NCBI GenBank assembly: GCA_026125585.1 | Contig: JAHCLD010000006.1 | Span: forward strand, 1 to 33,002 | From: Burkholderiales bacterium | Lineage (GTDB): Bacteria > Pseudomonadota > Gammaproteobacteria > Burkholderiales > SG8-41 | Reading direction: 5' to 3' | DNA: 33,002 nucleotides | In this document: in pieces, positions 8,793 through 33,002 of the stretch | Position numbering within the stretch: the stretch's first letter is position 1 | Layout: the number at the start of each line of letters is the position of its first letter | The notes under the pieces: generated by a model | What the model saw: the letters and a program-made list of their open reading frames with translations, nothing else | Told to the model about the DNA's origin: nothing | Database searches by the model: none | Made by a program: the position numbers and the translations under genes

Positions 8793-8871
8793 CCGTCAGT
8801 TTTCCGTCACCGTCTTTTTACAAGAGTGGCGTGGCGTACACCGTCAGCGCATCGATTTTATAAAAAAACAA

Positions 8872-8891
8872 TAAAAACAAATACTTATTGA
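8872..8891 (+). repeat. AT-rich motif, copy A (intergenic, upstream of pilin sigma-54 promoter)
   Basis: TAAAAACAAATACTTATTGA. The core is bracketed by a perfect 6-bp inverted repeat CAATAA (8869-8874)/TTATTG (8885-8890). It is one of four similar copies in the window; see 18143, 25020 and 32944. It sits about 60-80 bases upstream of the -24 element of the pilin promoter, where an IHF or activator site would be expected, but it matches the IHF consensus poorly. Confidence 0.6.
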
Positions 8892-8953
8892 TGCTCCGGC
8901 ATGGTGCAAGACCTTCTGCCAGCCCATCTGTTGACATCGTGGCCACCGTCCGA

Positions 8954-17550: not shown

Positions 17551-18155
17551 GCGGCGGCATCCTCGAAATCCCGCTGTTCCCCCTGGGCACCGTGCTGTAT
17601 CCCGGCGGACAGCTGCCGCTCAAGATCTTCGAACAGCGCTACGTCGACATGACCAAGGCCTGCCTGCGCGACTCGACACCCTTCGGCGTGTGCCTGATCC
17701 GGGAAGGACGCGAAGTCGGCGAACCCGCGACGCCGCATGCGGTGGGTTGTCTCGCGCAAATCGAGCAGTGGGACGTGCCCCATCCCAACCTGTTCGCCAT
17801 CCTCGCGCGCGGCGGCGAACGCTTTCGCATCCTCGGCGCGGCAGTATCGCCCGGCGGGCTGATCACCGGCCGCGTTGAAATCCTTCCCGAACCCTCGCGC
17901 CCCGCGACCGTCGATCGCGCCTGCCAGGAAGTGCTGCGGCTCGCCATCGAACGCGCCGGCAGCGACAGCGTCCCCGGACCGATACGGCTGGATGACCCGG
18001 TCTGGGTCAGTTACCGCCTCGCCGAAATCCTGCCGATCACGCCCCTGGAGAAACAGGCCATGCTGGAGCTGGACGACACCGGCACAAGGCTGGCACAGCT
18101 GCACGAACTGCTGCTCAAGCACGGTATCATAGAAAATATCAATAAAAACAAATAG
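17547..18155 (+). CDS. LON substrate-binding-domain protein (stand-alone, no protease domain)
   Basis: Predicted 202 aa. The opening [20 protein letters not shown] and [20 protein letters not shown] are the signature of the Lon N-terminal substrate-recognition domain; [20 protein letters not shown] and RFRILGA continue it. No AAA+ or Ser-Lys protease domain follows, so it is one of the small stand-alone LON-domain proteins of unknown role. It overlaps rapZ by 4 bases and ends the long operon. Its last codons (ENINKNK, stop) are made of the AT-rich motif copy B, very different in base composition from the rest of the gene, so the native C-terminus may have been altered. Confidence 0.88.
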
Positions 18156-18163
18156 TTACTGAT
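18138..18163 (+). repeat. AT-rich motif, copy B (3' end of the LON-domain gene)
   Basis: TAAAAACAAATAGTTACTGA at 18143-18162, with ATCAATAA (18138-18145) and TTACTGAT (18156-18163) as 8-bp arms with one mismatch. It supplies the last codons and the TAG stop of the LON-domain gene. Confidence 0.6.
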
Positions 18164-18234
18164 TCACTGTTTCTGTAGATACTACCCGCGGCGGCAGGCA
18201 TGCCCGCCCCGGCACCACCCGATCCGCCGGCAGG

Positions 18235-21938: not shown

Positions 21939-22682
21939 ATGCAGACACCGACGACTTCGCACTTCCAGTTGCGACAGCTGGTTTCGCCGCCGTTCCTGCG
22001 GGAGTTGCATCATTTCCTGTGGACGGAACCCTGCATGGCCGACGACCGGATCGACGTCGGCTGGAACTGCCGCGATCATGCCTGGACGCTCGCATTCCTG
22101 CTGCAGTTCTTCGGCATCGATTCCGCCGTGGCGCATGGCCAGGCTTTTTTCGCATCGGGTCCCACCGTGAAACAGGAAGCCGTCAGCTACACCCAGGCAC
22201 CGCACAGCTGGCTGGTCGCCAAAAATCTCGGAGCCATCGATCTCAGCATCAAGCCTGCCTTCGTGGCCGCAGGCGACAGATTCAGCGTGCCCATCAAATG
22301 GATATTCCTGAACGGCGCCGCCCCCGGAAAATGCGAAACGCTGTTCTTCACGGATGAAAACGCCTACCGGCGCGCAACCCTCCAGCTGCCGGAACGCCGC
22401 AACCGGATGGGCGCAGCATACCTGGCCGAAGGATATGAACGCCTGGGACGGGATCATTTCGAATCCGCGGCACGCTGGATGGATTCCAGCCTGACGCGCC
22501 AACTGCTCAATCTGCGCGCCGACCCCTCCGGTCTCTATGCCGCGCTGCTCGCACACCTGATCGGTTTTCTTCAGGGGCGGGCGCCCAGCCTCGCCGCCCT
22601 GCCTTTCAGGGACGCCTGGTCGGCGCTGGCGTCCGAGCAACCCGCCTTTCGGAATCTCCCCGAGCTGTTGCCGGCGGCCTAG
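21939..22682 (+). CDS. Uncharacterised protein with transglutaminase-like Cys-His-Asp pattern
   Basis: Predicted 247 aa from ATG 21939; an ATG at 21864 would add a very basic, repeat-encoded stretch and is less likely. No signal peptide or membrane helix is seen. WNCRDHAWTLAFLLQFFGID (Cys44) followed by HSWLVAKNLGAIDLS (His89, Asp101) has the spacing and local sequence of a transglutaminase or papain-like triad: Cys starting a helix, then His and Asp on adjacent strands. I do not recognise the family, and the C-terminal half (AAYLAEGYERLGRDHFESA) is helical without known motifs. The gene stands alone, and its TAG stop lies inside the left end of the palindromic element at 22679. Confidence 0.65.
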   Translation: MQTPTTSHFQLRQLVSPPFLRELHHFLWTEPCMADDRIDVGWNCRDHAWTLAFLLQFFGIDSAVAHGQAFFASGPTVKQEAVSYTQAPHSWLVAKNLGAIDLSIKPAFVAAGDRFSVPIKWIFLNGAAPGKCETLFFTDENAYRRATLQLPERRNRMGAAYLAEGYERLGRDHFESAARWMDSSLTRQLLNLRADPSGLYAALLAHLIGFLQGRAPSLAALPFRDAWSALASEQPAFRNLPELLPAA

Positions 22683-22840
22683 AGCCTGTTATGGACTTGA
22701 AAAAGTATTAAGAATCAATAGCTCACTGCACCCTCACCCCCTGCCCCTCTCCCGAAGGGAGAGGGGTTTTAAAGCCCTTCTCCCTCCGGGAGAAGGGTTG
22801 GGATGAGGGAAAAGGGGGTCAAGTCCATAACAGACTCTAG
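22679..22840. mobile_element. MITE-like palindromic element with 22-bp terminal inverted repeats
   Basis: The ends are 22-bp inverted repeats with one mismatch: 22679-22700 (CTAGAGCCTGTTATGGACTT...) and 22819-22840 (reverse complement begins CTAGAGTCTGTTATGGACTT). Inside are CCCTCACCCC (22731-22740)/GGGATGAGGG (22800-22809) and two perfect 10-bp hairpins: CCCCTCTCCC-GAA-GGGAGAGGGG (22744-22766) and CCCTTCTCCC-TCC-GGGAGAAGGG (22775-22797), separated by TTTTAAAG. There is no ORF. The core resembles the CCCTCTCCC-type repeats widespread in proteobacterial intergenic DNA. It lies exactly between two convergent genes, whose TAG stops both fall in its ends, and it should act as a two-way terminator. 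Confidence 0.8.
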
Positions 22841-25828
22841 ACCACCACCCGCGACACCCGGCACAGCAGCACTTTCAGGTTGGTCTGGTCCGACACCGGA
22901 TCGCGCTGCGTCTTGTCGGTCAGGAAATTCACCGGCCGCCAGGGGTTGTACGGCTGGCGCTCGCCCCAGCCGATGGGAATGAACACCGCGGTCGGCCGGA
23001 TGCCGGCGTGCACCCAGGCCATCGCCTCGATGCTGCCGTGCGCCGACTCCACCTTGACGCGCTCGCCGTCGCGGATGCCGAGTTGCGCCGCCTTCTCCGG
23101 ATGGATCTGGCAATAGAGGTCGGGCCACATCTCCTGCGACTGCCAGAAATAATGCGTCCAGCTGTGGAAATGCGCCGCCGGCGGGCGGCCGGTGACGAGC
23201 TCGGTATCGAAGCCCTGCGCACGCAGCTTCGCGCCGGGATGATCCGGGCCGGGCGCGACGATGCGGCCGCGCGCGCTGCCGGTGGCCGGAGAGCAGAACG
23301 GCGAAATTACGCCTTCCTCGGCATCGGTCTCCAGCAGTTCCATGTACGGCAGGTCGACGAGCTGCTCGCGCTCCGAATAGAACTCCGGCAGCGCCGACAA
23401 GCCCAGCGTGTTGAATTTCGCTTCCAGCTCCGGCGTCCAGAATTCGAGCTTGCCCGATTTCGTCGGGAAACGCCGGCCCGGCGCGCCGGTGGGGACGGTC
23501 GTGCCTTCGAGGTACAGCGTCTCGATCTCCGGCGCGTCCTCGGTCGGCACGGGAATGCGCACCCAGCGGTGCGGCACCGAATGCAAGCGCTTCTGCGTGC
23601 AGCCTTTCATGCTCGGTGTATCGATGCAGACCTCGTCCCAGAACACGGCCGGGTCCTTGTATTCCTCCTTCAGCACGTCGCCGAAACCGAGGCGCTTGCC
23701 GAGCTCGACCCAGATCCAGGTGTCGGATTTCGCCTCGCCCGGCGGATCGATCATCTTGTCGATCCACACCACGCGGCGGTCGTCGTTGGAGCGGCCGATC
23801 TCGCCCTTCTCGATGCCGCTCGCCGCCGGCAGCAGGTAATCCGCGTACGCCGAAGTCTCGTTGGCAAACAGTTCGATGTGCACCATCAGGTCCAGCGCGG
23901 CGAACGCGGCGCGCGCCTTTGCCTGCCCCGGCCACTGCGCCATCGGATTGTTGCAACTGATCAGCGCGCGGATCGGATACGGCTTGCCGTGCAGCATCGC
24001 CTCGGTCCAGCCGGCGGGACTGCGGCGCACGCGCTGCTTGTTGATCTTCGGCGCGCGGTGCTCCGGCACCTTCGCCGCCAGCGGCGTGCCGGCGCTCATG
24101 TTGAAATAGGCGCCACCGCGCCGGCCCCAGTTGCCGGTGATCGCCGACAGGAACATCAGCACGCGGTTGGTCTGCGTGCTGTTGGTGTGCTGGTTGATGC
24201 CGCGGCTGGCGAAGATCACGCAGCCGTCGGCCGCGGCGATCTCCTCCGCAAGCTGGCGGATGTCGTTCGCCGCAAGGCCGGTGATCGGCGCCGCCCATTC
24301 CGGCGTATAGTTTTTCTGCAGAATGAAGTCGCGCCACTCGGCGAAACCCAGCAGCCAGTCGGCGCAGAACTGCGCGTCGTGCAGGTCGTTGGCGAGAATA
24401 TGCTGTGCAAGAGCAAGTGCCAGCGCCATGTCGGTGCCGGGGCGGATCGGCAGCCAGCGGTCGGCCTTCGACGCGGTGGCGGTCAGGCGCGGATCGACGG
24501 CGACCATTTTTGCGCCGTGCTTCAGGCGCCAGTCGTTGATCATGCCGAAGTACACTGGCCGCGTTTCGGCCTGGTTGTCGCCGATGTAGACGTAGAGCTG
24601 CGCCGAACCGAGGTCGTTCTCGGTATAGCTGTTGCCGCTGCCGATGCTGCCCAGCGTGATCTCGAAGGCGACGTTCTTGCCGCTGGCGCAGAAGGGATCG
24701 GTGCCGTCCTTGTTCGGCGTGCCGAACAGTTTCGCAAACATCGGGGTCGTCGTGCGGTAATCGAGGATGCCGGTGCGCGTGCCGACGAACATCGCCAGCG
24801 CCTCGGCGCCGTACTGGTCGCGGATTTTTTTCAGTTTCTCCGCGATTTCATCCAGTGCCTGGTCCCAGGAAATGCGCTCGAAGCGGCCCTCGCCGCGCGC
24901 GCCGACGCGTTTCTGCGGATACCGCAGGCGATGCTCGCTGTGGTACATCTGCAGCGTCAATTGCGACTTCGGACAGACGCGCCCTTTCAGCAGCGGATCG
25001 TCGTCGTTGCCGGTGATTTTCACTAACTTATTGTTTTTAAAGTGAAATTTAACCGTGCAGCAGTTGAAGCAGATATTGCAGCCGCCGGGCACGACACGGT
25101 CCGGCGCAGTGTCGTCCCGCGTTTCGCGGTACGGAAAAGCCGGCGACTGCGCCTGCACCGCGGTCTGCGCCGGCACGCCGTCCATGAACGCGGGACGGCG
25201 CGAGGTCGAAGGATGAGCGCGCGCCGGCGTCACCGCGGCCACGGCACCGACCGGCTGCGGCGTCGTGCGCTCCAGATAAATCGTCGCCGGTCCGAGCAGG
25301 AAATGGTCCTGATCGCGCGGCGCGCGGCCGGCGGCGCGCGCCTCGGCCAGCAGCTCCTCACGTTTACCAAAGCGGATCGCCTGCGTCGGGCAGACGCTGG
25401 CGCAGGCGGTGGTCTGCGCGCCCTCGGCGCGGCGGTCGACGCAGAGATCGCACTTCACCGCATGGTGGCCCTTGGCATCGTAGCCCATCGCGCTGTACGG
25501 GCAGGCCATCACGCACTCGCCGCAGCCGGTGCAGCGCGACTCGTCGACGCGCACGATGCCGGTGACCGGATCCTTGGCGATGGCTTTCGGGTTGACCGGG
25601 CAGGCGCGCAGGCAGGCCGGACGCTCGCAGTGCTGGCAACTCAGCGTCAGGAAGGCGAGCCCCGCCTGCTTCCAGCTCGCTGGCCCACACCACCTTGTTG
25701 CGGTACTCGCCGGGACCGAGCCGGTGCTCGGTCTTGCAGGCCGCCTCGCAGCTCTTGCAGCCAGTGCAGCGCTCGATGTCGATCAGCAGCGCGAGCCGTC
25801 CGGAAGGTCCGGCGTTCATCGTGTCCAT
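22837..25828 (-). CDS. Polyferredoxin-molybdopterin oxidoreductase fusion, split by an apparent one-base frameshift
   Basis: If one base is removed from CCCC at 25660-25663, a single 996-aa frame runs from ATG 25828 to the TAG at 22837. The first ~150 residues are a DmsB/NrfC-like [4Fe-4S] module with four Cys clusters: CTGCKSCEAACKTEH, CQHCERPACLRACP, CTGCGECVMACP and CDLCVDRRAEGAQTTACASV. A Pro/Ala linker leads to a DMSO-reductase-family catalytic subunit: its own cluster (CNICFNCC, then GRVCPKSQ), FVGTRTGILDYRT, PFCASGKN (possible Mo-ligating Cys) and a C-terminal domain with VTGRPPAAHFHS and IHPEKAAQLGIRDGE. No twin-arginine signal is seen, so a cytoplasmic location is likely. It is one base from the upstream membrane-protein gene. 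The substrate cannot be told from sequence. Without a correction the second piece is a 905-aa ORF from 25554. Confidence 0.8.
25020..25039 (-). repeat. AT-rich motif, copy C (inside the molybdopterin oxidoreductase gene)
   Basis: Minus strand TAAAAACAATAAGTTAGTGA. It is bracketed by TTTCACT and AGTGAAA, 7-bp perfect arms with a 16-base centre. It encodes FKNNKLVK, in a turn next to the N-terminal Fe-S cluster of the catalytic subunit. Confidence 0.6.
25660..25663 (-). other. Apparent +1 frameshift site (CCCC/GGGG run)
   Basis: Upstream the reading frame encodes CKTEHRLGPGEYRNKVVWAS followed by ELEAGG; downstream the continuing ferredoxin (LAFLTLSCQHCERPACLRAC) is in a different frame. Dropping one base of the four-base run joins them exactly. 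Sequencing error and a true mutation both fit. Confidence 0.75.
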
Positions 25829-32639: not shown

Positions 32640-33002
32640 TCAGGGCAGAAACAGTTCCAGCAGATCGTTCAGGAAACGGCGTCCGAGCGGAGTCGGCCGG
32701 ACATGCCGGTGATCGCGCTGCAGCAGGCCGCGGGCTTCGGCCCGATCGAGGACGGGCAGCACGCCGGTCAGATCAAGGCCCGTGCGCTCGACAAACAGGG
32801 CCAGTTCGAAACCGTCGTTCAGCCGCAGGGCGTTCATCATGAATTCACCCGGCAATTCCGCGGGCGTCAGCTCGCGCCGCTCGCCGACCGCGGCGCCGGT
32901 CGCCGCACGGGCCAGATAAGCTTTCGGCTGCCTCGTACGGGATTCACGTAATATATTGTTTTTAAACAATATTTTTCCTTGCGCCCCGGCGCCGATGCCG
33001 AG
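32640..33002 (-). CDS. hemW: HemW-like radical SAM protein, C-terminal part (5' end outside window)
   Basis: The frame is open from the window edge: LGIGAGAQGKILFKNNILRE, then RTRQPKAYLARAATGAAVGE. The end ELPGEFMMNALRLNDGFELAL ... PTPLGRRFLNDLLELFLP is the C-terminal HemN/HemW domain. GIGAGAxGK and RxxxRQPKAYL also match HemW, now considered a heme chaperone rather than a true coproporphyrinogen oxidase. The radical SAM core (CxxxCxxC) is outside the window. The stretch ILFKNNIL is encoded by an AT-rich palindrome (motif copy D), unlike the GC-rich codons around it. Confidence 0.88.
   Translation of the reverse strand, partial: LGIGAGAQGKILFKNNILRESRTRQPKAYLARAATGAAVGERRELTPAELPGEFMMNALRLNDGFELALFVERTGLDLTGVLPVLDRAEARGLLQRDHRHVRPTPLGRRFLNDLLELFLP
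32944..32972 (-). repeat. AT-rich motif, copy D, with a 9-bp palindrome (inside hemW)
   Basis: Minus strand TAAAAACAATATATTACGTG plus A (21 bases, one longer than other copies) at 32944-32964. It overlaps the perfect inverted repeat ATATTGTTT-TT-AAACAATAT at 32953-32972. It encodes the FKNNIL segment of HemW. Confidence 0.6.

Follow-up and report, generated by a model that had tools for sequence, protein, structure and literature searches.

Two copies of an AT-rich motif in conserved genes

Two conserved genes in a 33,002-nucleotide stretch of Burkholderiales DNA (the window) contain closely similar AT-rich DNA, and the question is what put it there. The first gene is hemW, of which the C-terminal part lies in the window (32640..33002, minus strand) and the rest continues beyond it; the name comes from an earlier, sequence-only reading of this DNA and from the HemN_C domain (Pfam PF06969). 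The second encodes a molybdopterin oxidoreductase with an N-terminal 4Fe-4S domain (22837..25554, minus strand; Pfam PF00384, PF01568, PF13247 and PF04879). The hemW copy (32940..32982, minus strand) has the core TTTAAAAACAATATATTA at 32949-32966 and reads FKNNIL in the context GAGAQGKIL-FKNNIL-RES, while the molybdopterin copy (25015..25057, minus strand) has the core TTTAAAAACAATAAGTTA at 25024-25041 and reads FKNNKL in the context CCTVKFH-FKNNKL-VKITG. Minus-strand translation of both cores thus confirmed that the same DNA is read as FKNN-x-L in both genes.

A pattern made from these copies, allowing up to three mismatches, had two matches in the window, and 100 shuffles gave no match. The sequence-only reading had described two copies. 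Both are real, with matrix (PWM) scores of 46.3 in hemW and 42.7 in the molybdopterin gene, but two more strong ones lie outside both genes. One (8854..8896, plus strand; PWM 59.5) lies beyond 8792, where no gene was called; its aligned counterpart in genome G001 has the motif, while in G006 a site could be placed only somewhere in a 3.1-kb flanked interval. The other (18125..18167, plus strand; PWM 53.3) covers the 3′ end of a gene with a Lon-substrate domain (PF02190), whose TAG stop at 18153-18155 falls within it, and G001 and G006 likewise have sites at the end of the corresponding gene. All four are putative IHF-type sites, as argued below.

The motif replaces residues without adding length

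The sequence-only reading had proposed one small DNA element behind both peptides, inserted or converted in frame by analogy with Rickettsia palindromic elements, which are repeated DNA read within protein genes. A search of 29 genomes gave hemW matches in 27; from 18 genomes of the genus, 17 sequences were compared. Opposite SFKNNILRE of the genus, hemW of ten other families of the order has SFADRIVRE, SFPDRVRRE or SFHDKIIRQ, and the lengths at the motif are equal. The replaced residues are therefore ADRIV, PDRVR, HDKII and similar, instead of the DGKL-like turn that had been expected, and the homologue alignment that the reading proposed showed no extra residues at FKNN in either hemW or the molybdopterin protein.

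Codon usage sets the motif apart from its surroundings. Across the 17 genus sequences, the window's own included, GC3 was 0.22 in the hemW motif codons versus 0.72 elsewhere in the fragment; the same codons in the ten other-family sequences had a GC3 of 0.72 (range 0.33 to 1.0). All 17 sequences contain TTT AAA AAC, and in two loci (L095 and L099) CAG replaces the CAA that comes next in the motif, a change permitted by the WATCAR form of the consensus. Ordinary protein conservation had been expected to show as the same FKNN residues with ordinary codons in unrelated genomes; hemW from the ten other families lacks FKNN and uses mostly GC-rich codons there. For the molybdopterin gene, 15 genus sequences span the position (own included; L080 does not), and 12 of them contain TTTAAAAAC; two paralogues without it read FKGDELV at equal length. 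Conservation at silent positions, together with the absence of FKNN from hemW of the ten families, indicates that a DNA element and not protein similarity explains both peptides, so this part of the earlier proposal stands while insertion does not.

In both genes the motif replaces residues without adding length and is not inserted DNA. Likewise, at a site present in G006 and absent from G001 the DNA aligns free of gaps. A small mobile insertion tolerated in frame would fit a motif that is repeated, AT-rich and found in coding and non-coding DNA, but we rejected it as highly improbable: neither protein changes length at the motif, the absent site aligns without a gap, and copies vary in the way of a binding site with nothing in common outside the motif. 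Positions are also largely kept between species (see below), which is not how a mobile element behaves; with no residues added either, the Rickettsia analogy fails. Intragenic sites may instead have been built by point substitutions where the protein tolerates FKNN-like residues.

The motif is abundant in four genera of one family

Run over the draft genome, the window-derived pattern had 66 matches and its reversed control 2. With a stricter 26-base pattern there were 178 matches in the same draft and 219 in G019, and the reversed control gave none in either. When the stretches around 61 matches of a near-identical pattern were fetched, they shared a motif of about 41-43 bp that reaches far past the pattern, and nothing outside it. 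We trained a matrix on 77 sites, some from genomes that were then scanned, and at a threshold of 32 obtained 133 sites from five longer contigs and the window. Scores fall into two groups in G001 and G006, where only 3 and 1 matches lie between 26 and 35; in G019 the reversed control gives 11 matches at a threshold of 30 and still 6 at 35, which means that false matches may be among the 40 sites counted there. Pieces of the motif are the top over-represented 10-mers and 12-mers (at least 12 copies) in four contigs of the genus, and the motif is over-represented on both strands genome-wide. Another repeat, around AGCCACAGAGGACACAGAG, is also over-represented in these contigs (G001:C20, G006:C1, G016:C22 and G019:C1) and has no relation to the motif.

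We surveyed 74 genomes of the family, with reversed-pattern controls of 0-4. All 21 genomes of the window's own genus (g1) have 84-290 matches, and arrays also occur in g22 (23-814 in 14 genomes), g138 (51-108 in three) and g139 (649 in one). The remaining 35 genomes, in g2, g3, g4, g5 and g140, have 0-4 matches, apart from 17 in G021 and 15 in G347. G347 belongs to g3, a genus otherwise at 0-4; its control gave 0, and the assembly possibly contains foreign contigs. In a survey of 300 genomes of the order, 291 of them outside the family, most outside genomes had none or few; the highest, G190 of family f45, had 43 against 3 in the control and has HU, and is perhaps an independent smaller array. 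Other maxima were 14-17.

The exact common form of the motif was found in at least 114 stretches, the matches listed including titles of Burkholderiales, Betaproteobacteria, beta proteobacterium and Bordetella parapertussis. The assemblies with the last label that contain the exact motif (L194, L198, L203 and others) look mislabelled. The carriers are a group of uncultured Burkholderiales, and the sites look like IHF docking places.

The motif resembles a strong IHF site

IHF reads DNA indirectly, and its strong sites, including those of lambda attP and E. coli, combine the consensus WATCARNNNNTTR on the right with an A-tract on the left (PMC9519438). The motif of about 43 bp described here has a similar layout, an A-tract followed by a core that comes close to WATCARNNNNTTR, mostly with A in place of T. 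The core is an exact fit in 36 of the 133 sites, with one mismatch in 93 and two in 4, although this fit was partly selected by the search patterns. The consensus T position holds A in 93 sites, T in 39 and G in one, and 126 sites fit when it is ignored. The A-tract, absent from the search pattern, is seen upstream of the core in the profile of 61 own-genome sites; a 6-mer with at least four A occurs in 113 of the 133 sites, a set in which an A-tract was partly required. Many positions exchange A/T or C/G, as expected for reading of DNA shape.

The lambda attP stretch contains exactly three WATCARNNNNTTR matches, which by their positions we take to be the IHF sites H1, H2 and H′. H2 is the best attP match of both our matrices, while H′ and H1 are at noise level. 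This single match is suggestive only, as H2 scores 15.58 and the best of 200 shuffles 15.99; its score of 33.5 with the second matrix, which assumes a GC-rich background, is not strictly comparable. As a second yardstick, the E. coli K-12 oriC stretch had no motif match, and the annotation shown for it carries no IHF feature. The array differs from the lambda and E. coli sites in several ways: A is common at the core T, the many near-consensus sites form a class that in two contigs is set off by a scarcity of intermediate scores, their spacing is even, and gene ends are a frequent location.

The T-to-A departure could mean that the sites belong to a family-specific DNA-binding protein other than IHF, with an architectural or segregation role, and the limitation of the array to four genera of the family while IHF is general would agree with this. 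We consider such a protein unlikely, because the A-tract and core stand in the register expected for IHF and H2 is the top attP match.

The RIP/BIME elements of enterobacteria also recur along the chromosome and contain an IHF site, whereas here nothing outside the site is conserved, neither a palindrome nor any other sequence. The motif profile lacks a G+C-rich hairpin, which makes a terminator unlikely. A TTTCACT/AGTGAAA inverted repeat beside the molybdopterin copy is not general among the sites. The window also contains an inverted repeat with 28-nt arms (22673-22700 and 22819-22846), 89% complementary and 118 nt apart.

Sites are largely kept in place between species

We asked whether sites of one genome recur at the same place in another. 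Where the place was found, the site was kept in 11 of 11 cases from G001 to G006 (17 asked) and 12 of 13 in the reverse direction (24 asked), in 9 of 12 from G006 to G016 (24 asked) and 8 of 11 back (22 asked), and in 2 of 3 from G001 to G016 (17 asked) and 2 of 6 back, with two more intermediate (22 asked). Some places were located by their flanks only, the longest such interval being 3.1 kb, and a single G001 site corresponds to two G006 sites that lie 84 bases from each other. Window sites were kept in 3 of 3 cases in G001, 3 of 3 in G006 and 1 of 1 in G016, and in the reverse direction in 3 of 3, 3 of 4 and 1 of 1. No G019 site aligned in this comparison, its contig being another region.

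There were 47 spanning alignments, of which 27 were scored as kept. In these ordered pairs, which include reciprocals, identity was 0.91 in the core versus 0.78 in the flanks, and the core was higher in 25 of 27. The 20 pairs scored as not kept were left out of these figures; inspected by eye, most still show the motif and were missed because an alignment gap cut down the length that was scored. Some six appear to be genuine absences, and none of these has a clean gap of 26-43 bases.

Sites favour gene boundaries and are evenly spaced

Using gene calls from a crude in-house caller, we placed 83 of the 133 sites (62%) between genes, 27 over a gene 3′ end only, 19 within genes and 4 touching a 5′ end or both ends; random places were 82% intragenic and 14% intergenic. 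Divergent gaps hold 18 sites and convergent gaps 7, against random intergenic shares of 0.19 and 0.15. The intergenic excess and the preference for divergent over convergent gaps would suit ordinary promoter sites of IHF or another regulator, unusually well conserved. We think this improbable, given the 27 sites that lie only over 3′ ends and the 19 intragenic sites, 15 of which are at codon 120 or later; nor is the even spacing described below expected from promoter control. Of the intragenic sites, 16 are read on the gene's own strand, for which stop codons in the other frames may account. Readings such as KTNTY- and NKIKYL- also occur, so FKNN-x-L is one of several open readings and not a special peptide. 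Some sites at gene starts give N termini resembling MNKNMNKIKYL- or, read by eye, MKNLFKINKL- (G006:C1 13060; L150 of G019), and these are perhaps the starts of signal peptides.

Spacing was analysed in four pooled contigs of the genus (1.08 Mb). At three thresholds the coefficient of variation (CV) of the gaps was 0.61 (103 sites), 0.63 (90) and 0.71 (78), against about 1.07 for a null of random gene gaps (p 0, 0 and 0.0003 in 3000 draws; at 90 sites 0 of 3000 draws were as even). Gaps shorter than 0.3 of the mean made up 6-7%, versus 31-32% for random gene gaps. Site-free AT-rich islands had a CV of 0.83-1.33, with a null limited to contigs with enough islands. Taken singly against random gene gaps, contigs gave p 0.19 for G001, below 0.001 for G006, G016 and G019, and 0.001 for G283 of g22, whose evenness is weaker when the threshold is raised (p 0.06 and 0.17). 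Pooling the genus contigs gave a median gap of 9.5 kb; taken one at a time their medians were 7.4-13.5 kb, and that of G283 was 4.4 kb. Mean gaps per contig ranged from 4.8 to 13.3 kb.

Orientation followed no rule: 49 of 90 sites lay on the G-over-C strand and 36 of 86 neighbours were oriented alike. With neither a strand bias following GC skew nor runs of a single orientation, we rejected a polar FtsK- or Chi-type motif, which also weakens that form of the non-IHF reading, as the sites are not polar along the replichore.

We favour the interpretation that the motif is a strong IHF binding site, forming an array of sites along the chromosome that would divide it into loops, and hold this to be somewhat probable. 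IHF would bind each site and make a U-turn, and we propose that this places the tips of supercoiled loops at the sites, dividing the chromosome into loops of about 4-14 kb. Published simulations place IHF at the tips of plectonemes, which it pins, and report that it can partition DNA into topological domains (PMC9519438).

A DNA uptake sequence is the main rival

A DNA uptake sequence would mark a cell's own DNA for transformation and spread by uptake bias, and its spacing would reflect fragment length. USS and DUS cores are 9-12 bp long. The uptake sequences of Pasteurellaceae and Neisseriaceae are known to be dispersed motifs (PMC7811141, PMC3630211, PMC2346458). The motif here is likewise dispersed on both strands, lineage-specific and tolerated in genes; its places are largely kept, and its pieces are the top over-represented k-mers. 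We nevertheless judge uptake unlikely, though the strongest competitor to IHF docking. The mean gaps compare with about 1 kb in H. influenzae (PMC7811141), which makes the motif about 5 to 13 times sparser, and with its 43 bp and IHF-like design it would combine an A-tract and an IHF-like core in register by coincidence. Competence genes are uninformative on this rival: ComEC was found in 16 of 17 genomes, but is equally present in motif-free genera of the family and does not discriminate. Among the titles and abstract openings listed for open-licence papers, we found neither an evenly spaced IHF array nor a Burkholderiales uptake motif, which is weak evidence of novelty.

Array genera lack detectable HU

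We searched 49 family genomes for HU and IHF proteins (PF00216) and compared the matches with reference proteins. No HU was found in the site-bearing genera checked (21 genomes of g1, 8 of g22, 3 of g138 and 1 of g139), in which IHF subunits were found; 32 of these 33 genomes have at least 50 sites, as do 38 family genomes in all. At least 50 sites were present in 32 of 39 family genomes without detected HU and in 0 of 10 with HU, which have 0-2 sites (HU of G345 is partial). Since the lineages are related, this association does not represent 49 independent events. In g1, proteins were classified by sequence for G000, G001, G016, G017 and the extra copies of G010 and G020, and the rest by counts and lengths. 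Put to NCBIfam, one IhfA and two IhfB scored above the NF001401/NF001222 cut-offs, and two HU proteins matched HU models best, but below cut-offs. Seven of the 32 site-rich drafts (G000, G003, G005, G008, G015, G319 and G321) have one or no PF00216 protein and so lack at least one IHF subunit as well, which makes the failure to find HU in them weak evidence.

Loss of HU is not a sufficient cause of the array, since seven genomes without detected HU (G021, G023, G324, G327, G330, G348 and G358) have only 0-23 sites. Altered IHF was also rejected as a cause, because the compared IHF proteins are alike across the family: those of array-free genera (G022, G023 and G024) are 90-98% identical to those of the own genus, so the array needs a separate reason.

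A broader question is whether the boundaries of bacterial supercoiling domains are encoded at all. More tentatively than for IHF docking itself, we suggest that a sequence-encoded array of IHF U-turns may set the positions of supercoiled loops every 4-14 kb after loss of HU, held by selection even in conserved genes; the job of the array would matter more once HU was gone. If true, this would be a bacterial counterpart of positioned loop anchors. The motif also shows that a DNA site can override the choice of codons and amino acids, even where the gene is conserved. Some genera of the family have the array and their neighbours do not, a natural comparison in which nearly identical IHF proteins can be contrasted by the presence or absence of the array and of HU.

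The extra PF00216 copies of G010 and G020 are both IhfB-like. G358, with 23 sites, few for its genus g22, has a third, diverged IhfB-like protein.
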